From Bradyrhizobium sp. Ash2021 (GTDB lineage Bacteria; Pseudomonadota; Alphaproteobacteria; Rhizobiales; Xanthobacteraceae), in NCBI RefSeq assembly GCF_031202265.1, contig NZ_CP100604.1, positions 6,678,501 to 6,742,500 on the forward strand: a stretch of DNA of 64,000 bases, written 5' to 3'. Positions within the stretch are counted from its first letter, which is position 1, and each line of letters begins with the position of its first letter. The notes beneath the pieces were generated by a model. It worked only from the letters and a program-made list of their open reading frames with translations. It made no database searches and was not told the DNA's origin. This document shows, one piece after another, positions 21,955 through 61,496 of the stretch. Made by a program: the position numbers and the translations under genes.

Positions 21955-23025
21955 TCAGAGCTGCGTAGCAGCCTTGTCCCCTGTTCCGGTCCAAACGCTC
22001 GTATTCAAGAACCGGACCACGTCTTCAGGGGCGAGTTGGATTTGCAACGCAGCACGCAGCGCGTTGATGTCGAAGTTCCGCAGATCCTCATTGAAATCGC
22101 CACACTGCGGCGACAGCACCATCGCCTCGATGCCGGCCGCCTGCGCCCGGTCGAACAGTCCTGCCACCGCGCCATCGCCCGCCCGATCGTCGTCGCGGAC
22201 GATATAGAGCCGGCGCAGCGTTGCTGGAAACAGGATCGCTGCGAGATGCGCGGCCGAGAGCGCTGCGACCATCGCCATGCGGGGCATAACGCAGCGGAGC
22301 GACAACATGGTCTCGATGCCCTCGCCCGCCGCCATCACGTCACTAGCCGGACCGAAACGAACCGCATGCCCGAGAAGGTGGCCCATCGCCCGGCGTGGGG
22401 TATCGACTGGCGCCTTGTCGCGCCCAGACGGATCGAGCCATGTGCGGTGCGCGCCGGTGATGTATCCCTGGAGGTCGGTAACAGCCGCGATCATAGCGGG
22501 CCGCATTTCGGTTGTGGCGTCTGTCTCGGGACGGTAGTAGCAACGCGGATGGAATCGCAGGCTATCGATGCCATGCAAGTCGGTTATGCCGCGTTGACGT
22601 AGATAGGTTTCCACTACGGTGCCGGTAATCGAGTTCGACATCGCGAAGAGCCGCCGCGCCGATTCCGATGAGCCGGTCGGTACCGGTGACAGATGCGGTC
22701 GATAGTCTGATCCGGGTTCGGATCGTGGCAGGCTCAGGAAGCGGCGTGCCTCGTCGGCGACATCGCGGAAGTCGAGGAGACCGCAGCTTTCGCGGATGAT
22801 GTCGAGGAGATCGCCGTGCTCGCCCGTCGCAGCGTCAGTCCATTTGCCGGCTGGTCGTTTCGGCGATTCCCTCAACCGGACGAACATGGAGCGGCCCGGC
22901 GTGTTTCTGACATCGCCGACCAACCAGTAGCTCCCCTGGCGCCTTCCGTTGGAAAGATAGTGGCGGCACACCGCCTCGGCATCGCGCGCGAGACGGTGCA
23001 CCAGTTCGGAAGCGTCGCGCGGCAT
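21955..23025 (-). CDS. DUF7146/toprim domain protein of plasmid/ICE type
   Basis: 356 residues starting at 23025, where the ATG overlaps the preceding stop (TGATG). The N-terminal part (ELVHRLARDAEAVCRHYL, then RSMFVRL and GKWTDAATGEHGDLLDII) is the DUF7146-type primase-associated domain. The C-terminal toprim part has the glutamate motif (MAAGEGIETMLSL) and the DxD-like motif (YIVRDDDRAGDGA). Such proteins accompany ArdC, ParB-like and strawberry-notch helicase genes on alphaproteobacterial plasmids and islands, where they probably act in element replication or processing of single-stranded DNA. Confidence 0.82.
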   Translation of the reverse strand: MPRDASELVHRLARDAEAVCRHYLSNGRRQGSYWLVGDVRNTPGRSMFVRLRESPKRPAGKWTDAATGEHGDLLDIIRESCGLLDFRDVADEARRFLSLPRSEPGSDYRPHLSPVPTGSSESARRLFAMSNSITGTVVETYLRQRGITDLHGIDSLRFHPRCYYRPETDATTEMRPAMIAAVTDLQGYITGAHRTWLDPSGRDKAPVDTPRRAMGHLLGHAVRFGPASDVMAAGEGIETMLSLRCVMPRMAMVAALSAAHLAAILFPATLRRLYIVRDDDRAGDGAVAGLFDRAQAAGIEAMVLSPQCGDFNEDLRNFDINALRAALQIQLAPEDVVRFLNTSVWTGTGDKAATQL

Positions 23026-23459
23026 CACGCGACTTCCCGCTCGCTGATGCACGCGATGCGGAAGCGCTGCACTTCCTTGGCCGAGACGCCAACGCCGGCC
23101 GCGTCGGTGGGCACGAACATGCGCAGCTTCCAGGAGATGATCCCGTGGAAAAGGCCGTAAGCCTTGAGGCGGTTGCACATGCCGTCGGTGAAGCCGGACA
23201 GCTCGATGCGGTACGCGCCCATGACGCGAACCCGACGGAGCTTGAGGCCTTCGTCAAGTGTGAGGACAGTGCGGCCCTCCATCAGCACGGCGCAAACGTT
23301 GGGACTCTGCAGCAAGGTGCGCCGCGCGATGCTCTCGGCCAGTTGCTCGATCAAGACACCCGCGTTTACACAGCGGACGGTCGACTGGCTCAGCACCGGC
23401 TTGTTGAGAGGAATGTCGCGAGAGGGCGACAACGAGATTTTTTGGATAGGCTTCGTCAT
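23025..23459 (-). CDS. In-frame deletion fusion of ParB-like N-terminus and strawberry-notch helicase C-terminus
   Basis: 144 residues. The first ~65 (MTKPIQKISLSPSRDIPLNK, then NAGVLIEQLAESIARRTLLQS) match the start of the ParB/RepB/Spo0J-type proteins of these modules. The rest (TVLTLDEGLKLRRVRVMGAY and on to FHGIISWKLRMFVPT) fits the C-terminus of the strawberry-notch family helicase that normally lies next to toprim. The remainder of both genes is missing, so a multi-kilobase deletion with an in-frame joint near residue 65 is the simplest explanation. The start at 23459 has GGAG upstream. Neither parental activity should survive. Confidence 0.65.
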   Translation of the reverse strand: MTKPIQKISLSPSRDIPLNKPVLSQSTVRCVNAGVLIEQLAESIARRTLLQSPNVCAVLMEGRTVLTLDEGLKLRRVRVMGAYRIELSGFTDGMCNRLKAYGLFHGIISWKLRMFVPTDAAGVGVSAKEVQRFRIACISEREVA

Positions 23460-23472
23460 CTCAGATCTCCAT

Positions 23473-23541
23473 GACGGGCGGCCGAAAGCCTCTCTCGACC
23501 TCCAACCCGTCACAGAAACCGGCCCGTCCTCTCACTCTCTC
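23473..23541 (-). promoter_or_regulatory. Structured leader upstream of the parB-like gene
   Basis: A hairpin with stem GACGGG / CCCGTC (23506-23511 and 23473-23478) ends 14 bases before the start codon, directly above the ribosome-binding site. The apical segment GGTCGAGAGAGGCTTTCGGCC can pair internally, and the upstream flank to 23541 is also conserved. It matches the leader of ardC at 24525-24594. Confidence 0.6.
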
Positions 23542-23560
23542 AGCAGACAGCGGAGACGCA

Positions 23561-24511
23561 TCACGCCGCCTCGTGATCGGCGGCCAACGTCGTCGGGCCT
23601 GCCGCGAGATCGGGCAGGAAACCGAGGAGATAATCCGCGACCTTGCTGGCTTGCGAAGCCGCCCGCACAATCGCGCGATTGTCCTCGCGCAGCACCTCGA
23701 GCCATGAGCCGATGTAGTCGGCGTGCCGCACGGTGGGCACAATGCCGAGCGACGCACAGCAAAACGAAGAGGAAATCTCTGCGACCATCTCCTCGAAGGC
23801 GTATCTTTTGGTACCGTAACCGCCCGAAAGGTCGCGGTTGAGCCGGGAGGAATGCCCGCTGGCATGCGCCAACTCATGCAGAGCAGTCCGGTACCAATTG
23901 ATCGGCTCAAAAAAGGCTGCCGGAGGCGGCACCTGAACGTAGTCTTTGGCAGGACAGTAGAAGGCCCGATTACCCCCGATACGAAAGTCGATGCCGGTCG
24001 CACCGATCAGCGCTTCGACCTGCGGCTCGACCATATGAGGCGATGGTGCGATGCTAGAAACATCGGCGGACAGGCCGTCACACTGATCGGTATTGAAGAC
24101 CGTAAAGCGCTTCAGGAATGGAATCGCATGGGCTTCATCACCCGCCGTACTCGCTCGCTTCATCTCCTCGGCGGGCACGAAGCGGTCAGCATAGACAACG
24201 GTCGTACCGCGCTCGCCTTTGCGAACGCAGCCACCGAGCGACAATGCCTGGCGGAAGGTGAGCCAGCTCTGGCCTGAAAAACCCCGCTCGACGGCGGCGC
24301 CCAGCAGGATCAGGATGTTGATGCCACCATACCGCCGACGGGTCGCGGCGTTCTGAGGCAGCGCAAGCGGCGCCCTAGCCGCAGCCGTTTTCCAGGGCTG
24401 GACCCACGGCACGCACCCAGCCTCCAGTTCGGCGATAATTTTGCGAGTGATGTCTTCATAGAAGTTGGTCCGGTCGGTGCCGATTCGGGCCTTGCGAACA
24501 TGTCTGGGCAT
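23561..24511 (-). CDS. ardC: ArdC-like antirestriction protein with zincin metallopeptidase domain
   Basis: 316 residues. The N-terminal ArdC domain (DRTNFYEDITRKIIAELEAG, then PWVQPWK, then GGINILILLGA) binds single-stranded DNA. The C-terminal zincin-like domain carries HELAHASGHSSR, an HExxH zinc site with third ligand downstream (EEMVAE). ArdC proteins protect incoming plasmid DNA from host restriction after conjugation. The length and both domains are complete. Its messenger begins with the same structured leader as the parB-like gene 50 bp downstream, which suggests shared control. Confidence 0.88.
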   Translation of the reverse strand: MPRHVRKARIGTDRTNFYEDITRKIIAELEAGCVPWVQPWKTAAARAPLALPQNAATRRRYGGINILILLGAAVERGFSGQSWLTFRQALSLGGCVRKGERGTTVVYADRFVPAEEMKRASTAGDEAHAIPFLKRFTVFNTDQCDGLSADVSSIAPSPHMVEPQVEALIGATGIDFRIGGNRAFYCPAKDYVQVPPPAAFFEPINWYRTALHELAHASGHSSRLNRDLSGGYGTKRYAFEEMVAEISSSFCCASLGIVPTVRHADYIGSWLEVLREDNRAIVRAASQASKVADYLLGFLPDLAAGPTTLAADHEAA

Positions 24512-24524
24512 CGCGGTTCTCCGC

Positions 24525-24594
24525 GACGGGCGCCGCGAGCCTCTCTCGCGACCATGAACCCGTCACGGCACACCCGGCCGTCTCTCTAACTCTT
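24525..24594 (-). promoter_or_regulatory. Structured leader upstream of ardC
   Basis: GACGGG (24559-24564) pairs with CCCGTC (24525-24530). Inside it CGCGAG pairs with CTCGCG around an AGAGG-like loop. The stem base lies 13 bases before the ardC start, next to the GGAGAA. It is homologous to 23473-23541 with compensating differences in the inner stem. Confidence 0.6.
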
Positions 24595-24745
24595 CGGTCA
24601 CGCTGCGAGAACCTAAGGGGCTGGTCGGTCGATCCGCATCAAAGGCCAACAAGGAGCCATGGTGCGAGGCTCCATTTGGACGTAGAGGCGATGGGAAAAG
24701 CAGTTTGCGTAGCGCAAGCGCAGCTACTCGCCGGCGGCGAGACCA

Positions 24746-25394: not shown

Positions 25395-25522
25395 AATGCT
25401 AAATAGGCTCCCTCGGACTGGCGCCAGTCGTTGTCCTAGACAAAGGTGAGCCGGCCGCGAGCGTCGTTGCGCACGCAGCCGACTTCCCTGCCATCCAGCA
25501 GAGCAACGAACTCGCTCATCAT
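25395..25522 (-). pseudogene. hipA toxin remnant
   Basis: The ATG at 25522 overlaps the hipB stop (ATGATGA). It begins MSEFVALLDGREVG and continues RGRLTFV, the normal HipA N-terminus. A TAG at 25436-25438 replaces the expected tyrosine codon, and the next codons still read DNDWRQSEGAY before similarity is lost. The kinase domain is absent. Confidence 0.7.
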
Positions 25523-25806
25523 GCCTTTTTCTTCCTGGCCTTGGCCACGATGGCGTTGATATCGACGGCAGGCCTGGTGGATCCCCGGGCGGATGTTTGT
25601 TCGGTGCCCGCATCTAGGCGGATGTCCAGGGCGTCAAGGGCGCGAAGGATCAGCCCAAGCTCAGCGCGCGCGTGGCCGTGCTCGACGTGGATGACCCATT
25701 GGCGGCTGACGCCAATGCTCTTGGCAAACGTCGATTGATCGAGTTTGAGTTTCTTGCGGCGGTCGCGAAGGAAGGCGCCGAGTTCGACCGGTGTGCGTAC
25801 GAGCAT
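25519..25806 (-). CDS. hipB: HipB-like antitoxin (XRE-family repressor)
   Basis: 95 residues from the ATG at 25806. The helix-turn-helix (LRDRRKKLKLDQSTFAKSIG, then SRQWVIHVEHG) is of HipB/XRE type, followed by a basic tail ending KARKKKA. It would bind and repress its own promoter and normally neutralise the HipA kinase. Its toxin partner immediately downstream is truncated, so this is an orphan antitoxin. Three repeats ATGTC(A/G)(A/G)CGTTCG in front of the gene are the likely operators. Confidence 0.82.
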   Translation of the reverse strand: MLVRTPVELGAFLRDRRKKLKLDQSTFAKSIGVSRQWVIHVEHGHARAELGLILRALDALDIRLDAGTEQTSARGSTRPAVDINAIVAKARKKKA

Positions 25807-59963: not shown

Positions 59964-61496
59964 TTACCTCGCGCCCCCCGCACAGATCCGTACGGGCCCA
60001 ATTCGGGCATACGGCTCCCACCTTGGATGTCTAACGGCGAAGCGCCTCGCTGGCCACGGATGAAGGATTCGCGGTTTCGGGAGCCAGTCGTCTGCCAACC
60101 GCTTGATCCGCTCCCAGGTCGTCCAGTCTTTCTGGCTCCGCTGCCGTAGCGTGCGCCGCCAGAGATTGGTAACGTGGAATAGGAACGCGGTCAGTGTCGA
60201 ACTGTTTGTCGGCACCGCGTGGTAGTTGAAGTAGCCGGTGACGACCTGCTGCAACCATCTTCCCTGCTGGGGAATCGGCTGATGCATGCTCCGTCGCAAT
60301 TCCTGTTTGATGGCTTGCAACTTTGCCTGCATGCGGTCCCGCCGAGACTTCCGTTTGATTTGGAATTTGCCCCGACGAGTTTTGCTGCAGATAAAGATGA
60401 AGCCCAGGAAGGTGAAGGTCTCCGGTTTGCCGAGCCCGCGCCGCTTGCGGTTTTCCGCCGCGAAGCGTCCAAACTCGATCAGCCGGGTCTTCTCCGAATG
60501 AAGCGACAGTGCAAACTCCTGTAACCGCTTACGCATCTCGTCGAGGAAGCGACGGGCGTCGGTCTCGTGCTCGAAGCCAACAATGAGGTCGTCGGCGTAG
60601 CGCACGATGATCATATTGCCCGCGGCCTCACGCCGTCGCCAGCGCTCGGCCCAGAGGTCGAAAACGTAGTGTAAGTAGAGATTGGCCAGAAGCGGTGAGA
60701 TCACCGATCCCTGCCCGGTCCCCTTGTCACTGACCGTCACGATCCCGTCTTCCAGGACGCCTGCCTTGAGCCATTTCTGGATCAGGCGGATGATACGTCG
60801 GTCGCCGACGCGATGTTCCACAAACCTGATGAGCCACTCCTGGCTCACCGTGTCGAAGAACGAGCGGATGTCGGCGTCCAGTATCCAGTTCACCTTTGTG
60901 CTGGTGATCCCGACCATGAGCGCATCCATCGCATCGTGCGTGCTGCGTCCGGTTCGGAACCCATATGAGAACCCGAGGAAATCTTCCTCGTAGATCGCGC
61001 TCAGCACCGCAGCCGTCGCCCTCTGGACGATCTTGTCCTCAAGGGCGGCGACCGCGATCGGGCGTTGCCGACCATCCGGCTTGGGTATGTAAACCCGCCG
61101 CGACGGTAGTGCCCGATACGCTCCCCGATGGACGCGAGCATGCAGGTCCTCAAGATTGCGCTCAAGGTGCTGCTCGTAATCCCGACATGTCAGCCCATCC
61201 ACTCCAGCTGCAGCATTCTCCTTGAGTTCAGAGAATGCCTCTGCGAGGTGATCAATACTGACGTGATGGAAGAGCGCGGTGAACTTCTCCTTCTTCCTTT
61301 GCCTTGCAGCTTGCCGTATGCGCTTCAGCGCCTGTGATACGGTTCCCCGGTACTGTGCCCGGCCCGTGCTTTGCTGACTCGCATTCCCCTCGGCCCCCGC
61401 CCTTGGCTCCACCAACTCCGCAGCCGGTTGCCCGGCCTTGTTCGTCGGCTTCACAGCTACTATGGCGGGGTCAGACTTCTCATGATCGTACATCAT
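59964..61496 (-). CDS. ltrA: Group II intron reverse transcriptase/maturase
   Basis: 510 residues behind GAGGAG. RT blocks include YIPKPDGRQRPIAVAALEDK, DADIRSFFDTV, GTGQGSVISPLLANLYLHYV and the catalytic RYADDLIVGF. The maturase (X) domain follows from RRGKFQIKRKSRRDRMQAK, with the GIIM-like LADDWLPKPRILHPW near the end. The last codons overlap intron domain V, as in several bacterial classes. No HNH endonuclease domain is visible. It would splice its host intron and promote retrohoming. Confidence 0.93.
   Translation of the reverse strand: MMYDHEKSDPAIVAVKPTNKAGQPAAELVEPRAGAEGNASQQSTGRAQYRGTVSQALKRIRQAARQRKKEKFTALFHHVSIDHLAEAFSELKENAAAGVDGLTCRDYEQHLERNLEDLHARVHRGAYRALPSRRVYIPKPDGRQRPIAVAALEDKIVQRATAAVLSAIYEEDFLGFSYGFRTGRSTHDAMDALMVGITSTKVNWILDADIRSFFDTVSQEWLIRFVEHRVGDRRIIRLIQKWLKAGVLEDGIVTVSDKGTGQGSVISPLLANLYLHYVFDLWAERWRRREAAGNMIIVRYADDLIVGFEHETDARRFLDEMRKRLQEFALSLHSEKTRLIEFGRFAAENRKRRGLGKPETFTFLGFIFICSKTRRGKFQIKRKSRRDRMQAKLQAIKQELRRSMHQPIPQQGRWLQQVVTGYFNYHAVPTNSSTLTAFLFHVTNLWRRTLRQRSQKDWTTWERIKRLADDWLPKPRILHPWPARRFAVRHPRWEPYARIGPVRICAGGAR
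59984..60017 (-). ncRNA. Group II intron domain V
   Basis: On the minus strand the 34-nt hairpin starts GAGCCGTATGCCC, has a GAAT-type tip, and closes with GGGCCCGTACGGATC, the conserved catalytic domain V shape. A domain VI-like hairpin (GCGCGAGGTAACTCGCG) follows to about 59951. Confidence 0.7.

Follow-up and report, generated by a model that had tools for sequence, protein, structure and literature searches.

A covarying hairpin leader before unrelated genes of alphaproteobacterial mobile modules, a candidate translational control RNA

Leaders that control translation by occluding the Shine-Dalgarno (SD) sequence, such as ribosomal-protein leaders and the expression platforms of riboswitches, hold the SD in a hairpin and carry conserved unpaired nucleotides. 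The radC RNA motif precedes radC, integrase and antirestriction genes. ArdC, ParB-like, DUF932-like and strawberry-notch genes are carried by the conjugative plasmids and islands of Alphaproteobacteria, and we know of no account of the timing of their expression in these elements. PMC2864571 describes STAXI as a pseudoknot that occurs in the neighbourhood of ssDNA-binding, topoisomerase and antirestriction genes, is repeated at least two and usually three times, and possibly acts as single-stranded DNA. PMC11541004 places the Frpo promoters before genes of the leading-region type, and according to PMC7213743 recipients need ArdC.

The window analysed here is a stretch of 64,000 nucleotides from Bradyrhizobium sp. 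Ash2021 (NZ_CP100604.1, positions 6,678,501 to 6,742,500). A preliminary description of it had reported two leaders with a shared GACGGG/CCCGTC stem, one before ardC and one before a parB-like gene. Both are confirmed and lie on the minus strand, with the CCCGTC end 13 nt before each ATG (24511 and 23459). The shared hairpin is present as described; the extent given for the leaders had to be revised, since the common part begins farther upstream, at an AGAGnnAGAG box. We call these leaders class I. The features are as follows.

24508..24599, minus strand: class I leader RNA of ardC (covariance model R1 match, 77.5 bits)
24584..24593, minus strand: 5′ AGAGnnAGAG box of the ardC leader, AGAGTTAGAG
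24559..24564, minus strand: 5′ arm of the outer stem, GACGGG, ardC leader
24540..24544, minus strand: apical loop AGAGG, ardC leader; its closing pairs covary in the family
24525..24530, minus strand: 3′ arm of the outer stem, CCCGTC, ardC leader
24519..24522, minus strand: SD-like GGAG of ardC; its predicted partner in most copies is the strand immediately 5′ of GACGGG
23561..24511, minus strand: ardC, ArdC N-terminal domain and zincin-like metallopeptidase (Pfam ArdcN 138.8 bits, MPTase-PolyVal 170.2 bits)
23456..23544, minus strand: class I leader RNA of the parB-like gene (R1, 72.3 bits)
23529..23538, minus strand: 5′ AGAGnnAGAG box of the parB-like leader, AGAGTGAGAG
23506..23511, minus strand: 5′ arm of the outer stem, GACGGG, parB-like leader
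23473..23478, minus strand: 3′ arm of the outer stem, CCCGTC, parB-like leader
23467..23470, minus strand: SD-like GGAG of the parB-like gene
23025..23459, minus strand: parB-like ORF, 144 aa; ParB-like residues 1-59 and a strawberry-notch C-terminus (residues 52-144), fused in frame
21955..23178, minus strand: downstream toprim/DUF7146 gene, without a class I leader

Common to both leaders are GTGACGGGTT, GAGAGAGGCT, CGCCCGTC and GGAGA, and by direct count the AGAG box of the parB-like leader lies 22 nt past the ardC stop codon. Each leader has a predicted fold of about -40 kcal/mol. As isolated hairpins, the ardC and parB-like structures reach z-scores of -3.6 and -5.0, and both beat 200 of 200 dinucleotide shuffles. 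For the whole leaders, z is -2.4 for ardC (7 of 200 shuffles equally good) and -3.2 for the parB-like gene (0 of 200). The apical part of the parB-like leader is 2 nt shorter than in most family copies and leaves a 3-nt loop when folded. A specific pattern finds only these two sites in the 9.7-Mb genome, and the next best R1 match there, after the two leaders, scores 16 bits (E 0.3).

Both leaders recur in plasmids: by blastn, the parB-like leader was found in 106 plasmid records and the ardC leader in 82, and the best 60 of the 106 records come from genera that we take to be Alphaproteobacteria. Scanning 84,980 species genomes with the pattern returned at least 119 stretches, and the pattern occurs in 13 of 385 genomes of the taxonomic class (reversed control pattern, 0). 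From all loci collected, 149 distinct copies were obtained by pattern; five gave no ORF, and in the other 144 an ORF starts 11-16 nt after CCCGTC (13, 14 or 15 nt in 142), a consistent position before start codons that is one mark of a cis-regulatory structured RNA. The proteins of the 144 copies form four mutually unrelated clusters: ParB-like (69), ArdC (37), DUF932-like (21) and an unnamed family of ~185 aa (17). Two of these names come from record annotation and from Pfam matches of one representative each that fall below the cut-off, DUF932 with 18.6 vs. 23 bits and ParB_N with 21 vs. 26.3 bits.

A covariance model, R1, was built from 52 diverse copies. Within the order it has matches in 22 of 121 genomes; for the class the count is 27 of 372, and for the phylum, class members included, 26 of 299. 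Since 25 of these 26 fall in the same class and the remaining one scores only 23 bits, the family is centred on Alphaproteobacteria; one copy (L096) comes from a metagenome bin titled Gammaproteobacteria. The weakest matches, at about 23 bits, may be due to chance. In all, R1 has 136 distinct matches: 114 lie before genes of the four families, 12 before some other ORF, and for 10 there is no ORF. A 51.6-bit match stands before a DUF2958 gene in L222. The further copies that the preliminary description had proposed to look for were thus found, repeatedly placed before ardC and parB-like genes. Its expectation of leaders before ardC, parB and toprim genes holds for ArdC and ParB-like genes and extends to DUF932-like and other genes; it fails for toprim, which carries no R1 match in the window, L266, L267 or L268.

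Genes of these kinds do not always carry the leader. Of the ArdC-domain matches in the 121 genomes, 19 of 59 have R1 directly upstream (compared by eye); the genome that contains the window has four such matches, and the one inside the window is alone in carrying the leader. The Ketogulonicigenium plasmid pYP1 has three leaders, before ArdC-type, ParB-type and 182-aa hypothetical genes, the last with a start of the 185-aa family kind; a DUF2958 gene of pYP1 that stands between leader-bearing genes is without one. The leader is also absent at a DUF932 gene of an R. etli plasmid, and on pCHQ1 it is missing from a further ParB-type gene as well as from an ArdC-like one. We considered a phage origin and rejected it: the parB-like leader matched 0 of 50,697 phage records, and two stretches in viral contigs carry the class I pattern.

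Several neighbouring elements were seen while these loci were compared. A conserved hairpin-like GCGGGG..CCCCGCAACGCCCC adjoins the AGAG box upstream in many ArdC and DUF932-like copies (L021, L010 and L047 among them), and ParB-like copies often have GGCGCTGCCCTC..GAGGGCGGCGC around the box instead. In L226, L227 and L228, divergent matches (24.7-28.5 bits) lie ~450 bp upstream of the ParB-like leader; they precede unnamed 120-128-aa proteins whose ORF ends meet the AGAG start of that leader. Right behind the ParB-like gene of L217 (7038-7114, plus strand) there is a sub-threshold match to the suhB/mmgR sRNA (29.1 bits, gathering 41).

That the leaders fit no named RNA family, as first described, is borne out by Rfam 15, which gave no match at them at the gathering threshold in the window or at E<=10 around the leaders, and at E<=1 in five other loci none at a leader and only sub-threshold matches elsewhere. 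The titles and abstracts returned by our literature searches held no description of the leader; the 2017 catalogue, which reportedly comprises 224 candidate RNAs, was covered only through Rfam 15. We file class I as a new RNA family of the general kind cis-regulatory structured RNA.

The structure is supported by covariation. In 109 non-redundant copies, the top corrected covariation among all tested column pairs falls on an inner-stem pair (A-T 44, G-C 34, C-G 10), and the apical loop stays mostly AGAGG while its closing pairs co-vary. Because the GACGGG/CCCGTC stem and some of the loop were prescribed by the pattern used for collection, these columns had no freedom to vary in those copies; matches of R1, itself trained on pattern copies, partly free the outer-stem columns. 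R1 found 158 matches in 91 sources, of which 150 were aligned. In the resulting alignment (A4), which has 135 distinct rows and was fitted to the structure, 94.7% of paired cells are filled by pairs, compared with 86.3% in shuffled and 35-50% in slid versions, and 19 of 20 pairs show two-sided changes, the GACGGG stem included. Outer-stem variants include GACGAG/CTCGTC, GACGGC/GCCGTC and GAAGGG/CCCTTC. A MAFFT alignment (A3) gives 94.3% paired vs. 90.1% shuffled and 31-43% slid.

Shared ancestry was allowed for by mapping changes on trees of the downstream proteins for the ParB-like (n=103), ArdC (n=55) and DUF932-like (n=36) families, with the 185-aa family left out. Co-changes that keep the pair numbered 29.3, 26.5 and 16.0, respectively, and in six mis-registered controls per family they reached at most 3.0, 1.6 and 3.0. 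Total co-changes against a branch-length null were 35.6 vs. 17.7 (sd 3.5) for ParB-like, 29.6 vs. 12.7 (sd 2.8) for ArdC and 18.0 vs. 9.2 (sd 2.2) for DUF932-like leaders, the last total being 18.0 one step out of register as well, so that only the pair-keeping count discriminates in that family. Covariation thus goes beyond phylogeny, another mark of a cis-regulatory structured RNA. Pair-keeping changes in excess of ancestry exclude duplication of sequence without structure, the outcome that would have told against the preliminary description, and its paired, covarying leaders stand with abundant compensatory changes.

Conservation starts at the AGAGnnAGAG box, which lay outside the class I search patterns and is exact in 96 of the 109 non-redundant copies and within one mismatch in 106. 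In the predicted ensembles of 103 copies, mean pairing is 0.83 for the SD GGAG, 0.03 for the apical loop and 0.36 for the 5′ box. By family (109 copies), predicted SD pairing is 0.88 for ParB-like, 0.79 for ArdC, 0.86 for DUF932-like and 0.50 for 185-aa leaders. The SD is therefore computed to be paired in the default fold, as in SD-occluding translational leaders, with the 185-aa family at the lower value. When the pairing partners beyond the SD were swapped among the 109 copies, the leaders' own partners gave -12.18 and swapped ones -11.52 kcal/mol (sd 0.20). The difference is clear in DUF932-like (-12.04 vs. -9.77) and modest in ParB-like leaders (-11.76 vs. -11.18); ArdC falls inside the swapped range and the 185-aa family gives no signal. 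Partner covariation thus weakly supports pairing beyond the SD.

We consider it probable that class I leaders are cis-acting mRNA elements in which SD occlusion gates translation and a factor reads the AGAG motifs. Each leader, ~85-95 nt long, would begin at the AGAGnnAGAG box and run up to the start codon in mRNAs of genes on alphaproteobacterial conjugative plasmids and islands. It would fold into an extended hairpin whose GACGGG/CCCGTC outer stem is prolonged by pairing of the SD strand with an upstream pyrimidine-rich strand, and which carries, above the outer stem, a short asymmetric bulge and then an inner stem topped by the unpaired AGAGG loop. In the default state the ribosome-binding site would be occluded and translation low. 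A trans-acting factor would then recognise unpaired AGAG in the 5′ box and the apical loop, and either open or lock the hairpin; in this way ArdC, ParB-like, DUF932-like and further establishment proteins could be co-regulated even within one operon mRNA. As the hairpin is very stable, its opening would require a strong factor or a kinetic window. Transcription of the leader, its regulation and the direction of control, the factor and any tie to entry into a recipient are what we infer here. If the leader does regulate, establishment genes would be co-ordinated at translation and not by promoters alone. A common leader on otherwise unrelated genes offers a single handle on module control, and the question can be tested with simple reporters.

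The same features could belong to a constitutive element for translation or mRNA stability, such as an insulator, a processing site or a ribosome standby site, with no regulation at all. Uniform expression, too, would be served by a single standard leader placed on many genes of broad-host-range elements. Yet an SD predicted to be occluded would reduce expression, and the box pairs with the 16S anti-SD no better than its own shuffles do (-7.7 vs. -9.2 kcal/mol), on which ground we also rejected the 5′ box as an SD mimic or standby site. Overall, we regard a constitutive role as unlikely. We would also call it quite unlikely that the AGAGG loop and the AGAG box are paired by another RNA, antisense or encoded in trans, such as a host sRNA carrying CUCUC motifs. 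In its favour, both loop and box are rich in purines and hardly vary, and the loop is unpaired; against it, sense-strand CCTCTCTC does not recur in 15 module loci, where it has two occurrences at unrelated places. An antisense RNA encoded in trans by the module itself was rejected, with no recurring complement across the 15 loci.

Strand and spacing bear on whether the hairpin acts as RNA or as DNA. On the sense strand, paired cells include 434 G-U and 54 A-C combinations (shuffled, 479 and 145), and in A3 160 G-U and 19 A-C. Because G-U is tolerated and A-C is scarce, selection, as read from the alignments, acts on the mRNA-sense strand and not on the template strand that is folded in Frpo. 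Between neighbouring leader genes, the distance from the stop codon to the next AGAG is at most 42 nt in 10 of 66 cases (window included); it is 52-98 nt in 26 others and longer in the remaining 30. In the ten tight cases a promoter would have to sit inside the upstream gene, an arrangement that suits an intra-operon translational element.

These data weigh against the reading that the hairpin is a single-stranded DNA promoter like Frpo, which would form in the entering T-strand and recruit RNA polymerase there, so that genes are expressed early in the recipient. In favour of it, the set of genes is similar to that of leading-region modules, the remaining 56 of the 66 neighbouring cases (>=52 nt) have room for a promoter of their own, and ArdC is reported as necessary in recipients in PMC7213743. 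A fold of the template strand, however, predicts more A-C than G-U on the sense strand, the reverse of what is seen; the best -35/-10 pairs average 5.7 mismatches in 12 positions on either strand, compared with 5.4 in shuffled sequence (109 copies, E. coli consensus); and the SD marks the end of the hairpin, mostly at a distance of 13-15 nt from the ATG. Wobble asymmetry, placement and the copies close behind an upstream gene point to mRNA, and we find a promoter of this kind very unlikely. A double-stranded DNA operator, for instance one bound as a palindrome by the ParB-like protein whose genes accompany the leader most often (69 of 144), is hardly credible given the variable half-site spacing, the covariation of the inner arms, in which one strand tolerates G-U, and the conservation of an unpaired AGAGG loop, none of which binding to double-stranded DNA needs.

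Scanning module loci for the AGAG box brought up a second leader, class II, in loci that include L266, L267, L217, L218, L219 and L224. It stands before strawberry-notch helicase genes of such modules, and its possession of the same boxes speaks for the reading proposed for class I. From 5′ to 3′ it consists of AGAGnnAGAG, an extended hairpin that differs from that of class I and has AGAGAG as its apical loop, CGCTCTCC, SD and ATG, the box having been part of the regular expression used for collecting the copies. A model, R2, was built from 37 copies, all from loci fetched for class I, and the genome search with it was unrestricted. It matched 16 of 121 genomes, 15 of which are among the 22 with class I, and a strawberry-notch gene is present in 21 of 22 loci. 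RNAalifold recovered the inner stem only partly, with a covariation term of just -0.17 kcal/mol, because the inner arms misalign; folding of the class II hairpin is plausible. For CGCTCTCC, both the box and the apical GAGAGCG are potential partners, and competing pairings are possible.

The two classes together raise the possibility of an element-wide translational regulon, in which class I would serve ArdC, ParB-like, DUF932-like and 185-aa genes, and class II those for strawberry-notch helicases. One factor reading the AGAG boxes of both classes might switch on the anti-restriction and establishment module upon entry into a recipient. We offer this only tentatively and lean against it at present. 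If true, it would be a post-transcriptional counterpart, in Alphaproteobacteria, of Frpo-driven early expression. The two covariance models serve in any case as markers for finding such modules and their unnamed proteins.

The window itself probably holds a chromosomal remnant of such a module with both leaders still recognisable. What had been called a parB-like gene is ParB-like at its N-terminus (42 of 60 identities with a ParB-like protein); it is not an intact parB, since its C-terminus matches residues 1347-1440 of a 1440-aa strawberry-notch protein (58 of 94 identities) through an in-frame fusion. The order ardC-parB-...-strawberry notch-toprim occurs in annotated plasmids such as pYP1, and by sequence comparison the ORF is a rearranged remnant of it. 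The genome has a single class II match at E<=0.001 (6817598-6817696, minus strand, L311), ~114 kb away and ~75 kb past the window end, before an N-terminal piece of strawberry notch (residues 32-121 matched). Most of the other window ORFs that were scanned are metabolic or unnamed; two are transposases and one is a reverse transcriptase, and no conjugation gene is among them. The fusion, the distant strawberry-notch piece and the lack of conjugation genes among those ORFs lead us to the remnant reading. Elsewhere in the window, two group II intron domain matches (RF02005 and RF02003; 61605-62599, minus strand) lie beside the reverse-transcriptase ORF (59964-61496), and a small helix-turn-helix gene (HTH_31/HTH_3; 25519-25806, minus strand) lies upstream of the ardC leader region.

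Among described systems, the radC RNA motif (RF01754) is likewise a proteobacterial candidate cis-regulatory RNA, listed in a table of PMC2864571. Weak class I matches also precede a RadC-family gene (L223, 26.7 bits) and a near-identical start (L218, 26.5 bits). The models differ in length, with 149 positions for RF01754 and 92 for class I. RF01754 has no match in the window, is over its cut-off in 0 of 12 leader-bearing genomes and has no sub-threshold match at the leaders, and we rejected it as the same family. STAXI keeps similar gene company, with ssDNA-binding, topoisomerase and antirestriction genes (PMC2864571); class I differs in being a single extended nested hairpin fixed before the SD. 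With one nested hairpin per leader and no Rfam match, class I does not belong to STAXI, pseudoknots being judged through the published description and the Rfam model. The Frpo/ssi promoters of F-like plasmids are also hairpins before early anti-defence genes of conjugative elements, according to PMC11541004. The class I fold, in contrast, is selected on the sense and not the template strand, has no -35/-10 beyond shuffles against the E. coli consensus and ends at the SD, which sets it outside that group as well. Class I resembles the SD-occluding leaders in its SD, predicted to lie within a hairpin, and in its conserved unpaired nucleotides; unlike them, it has no known ligand, and the same leader serves four or more gene families of a mobile module that are unrelated to one another.
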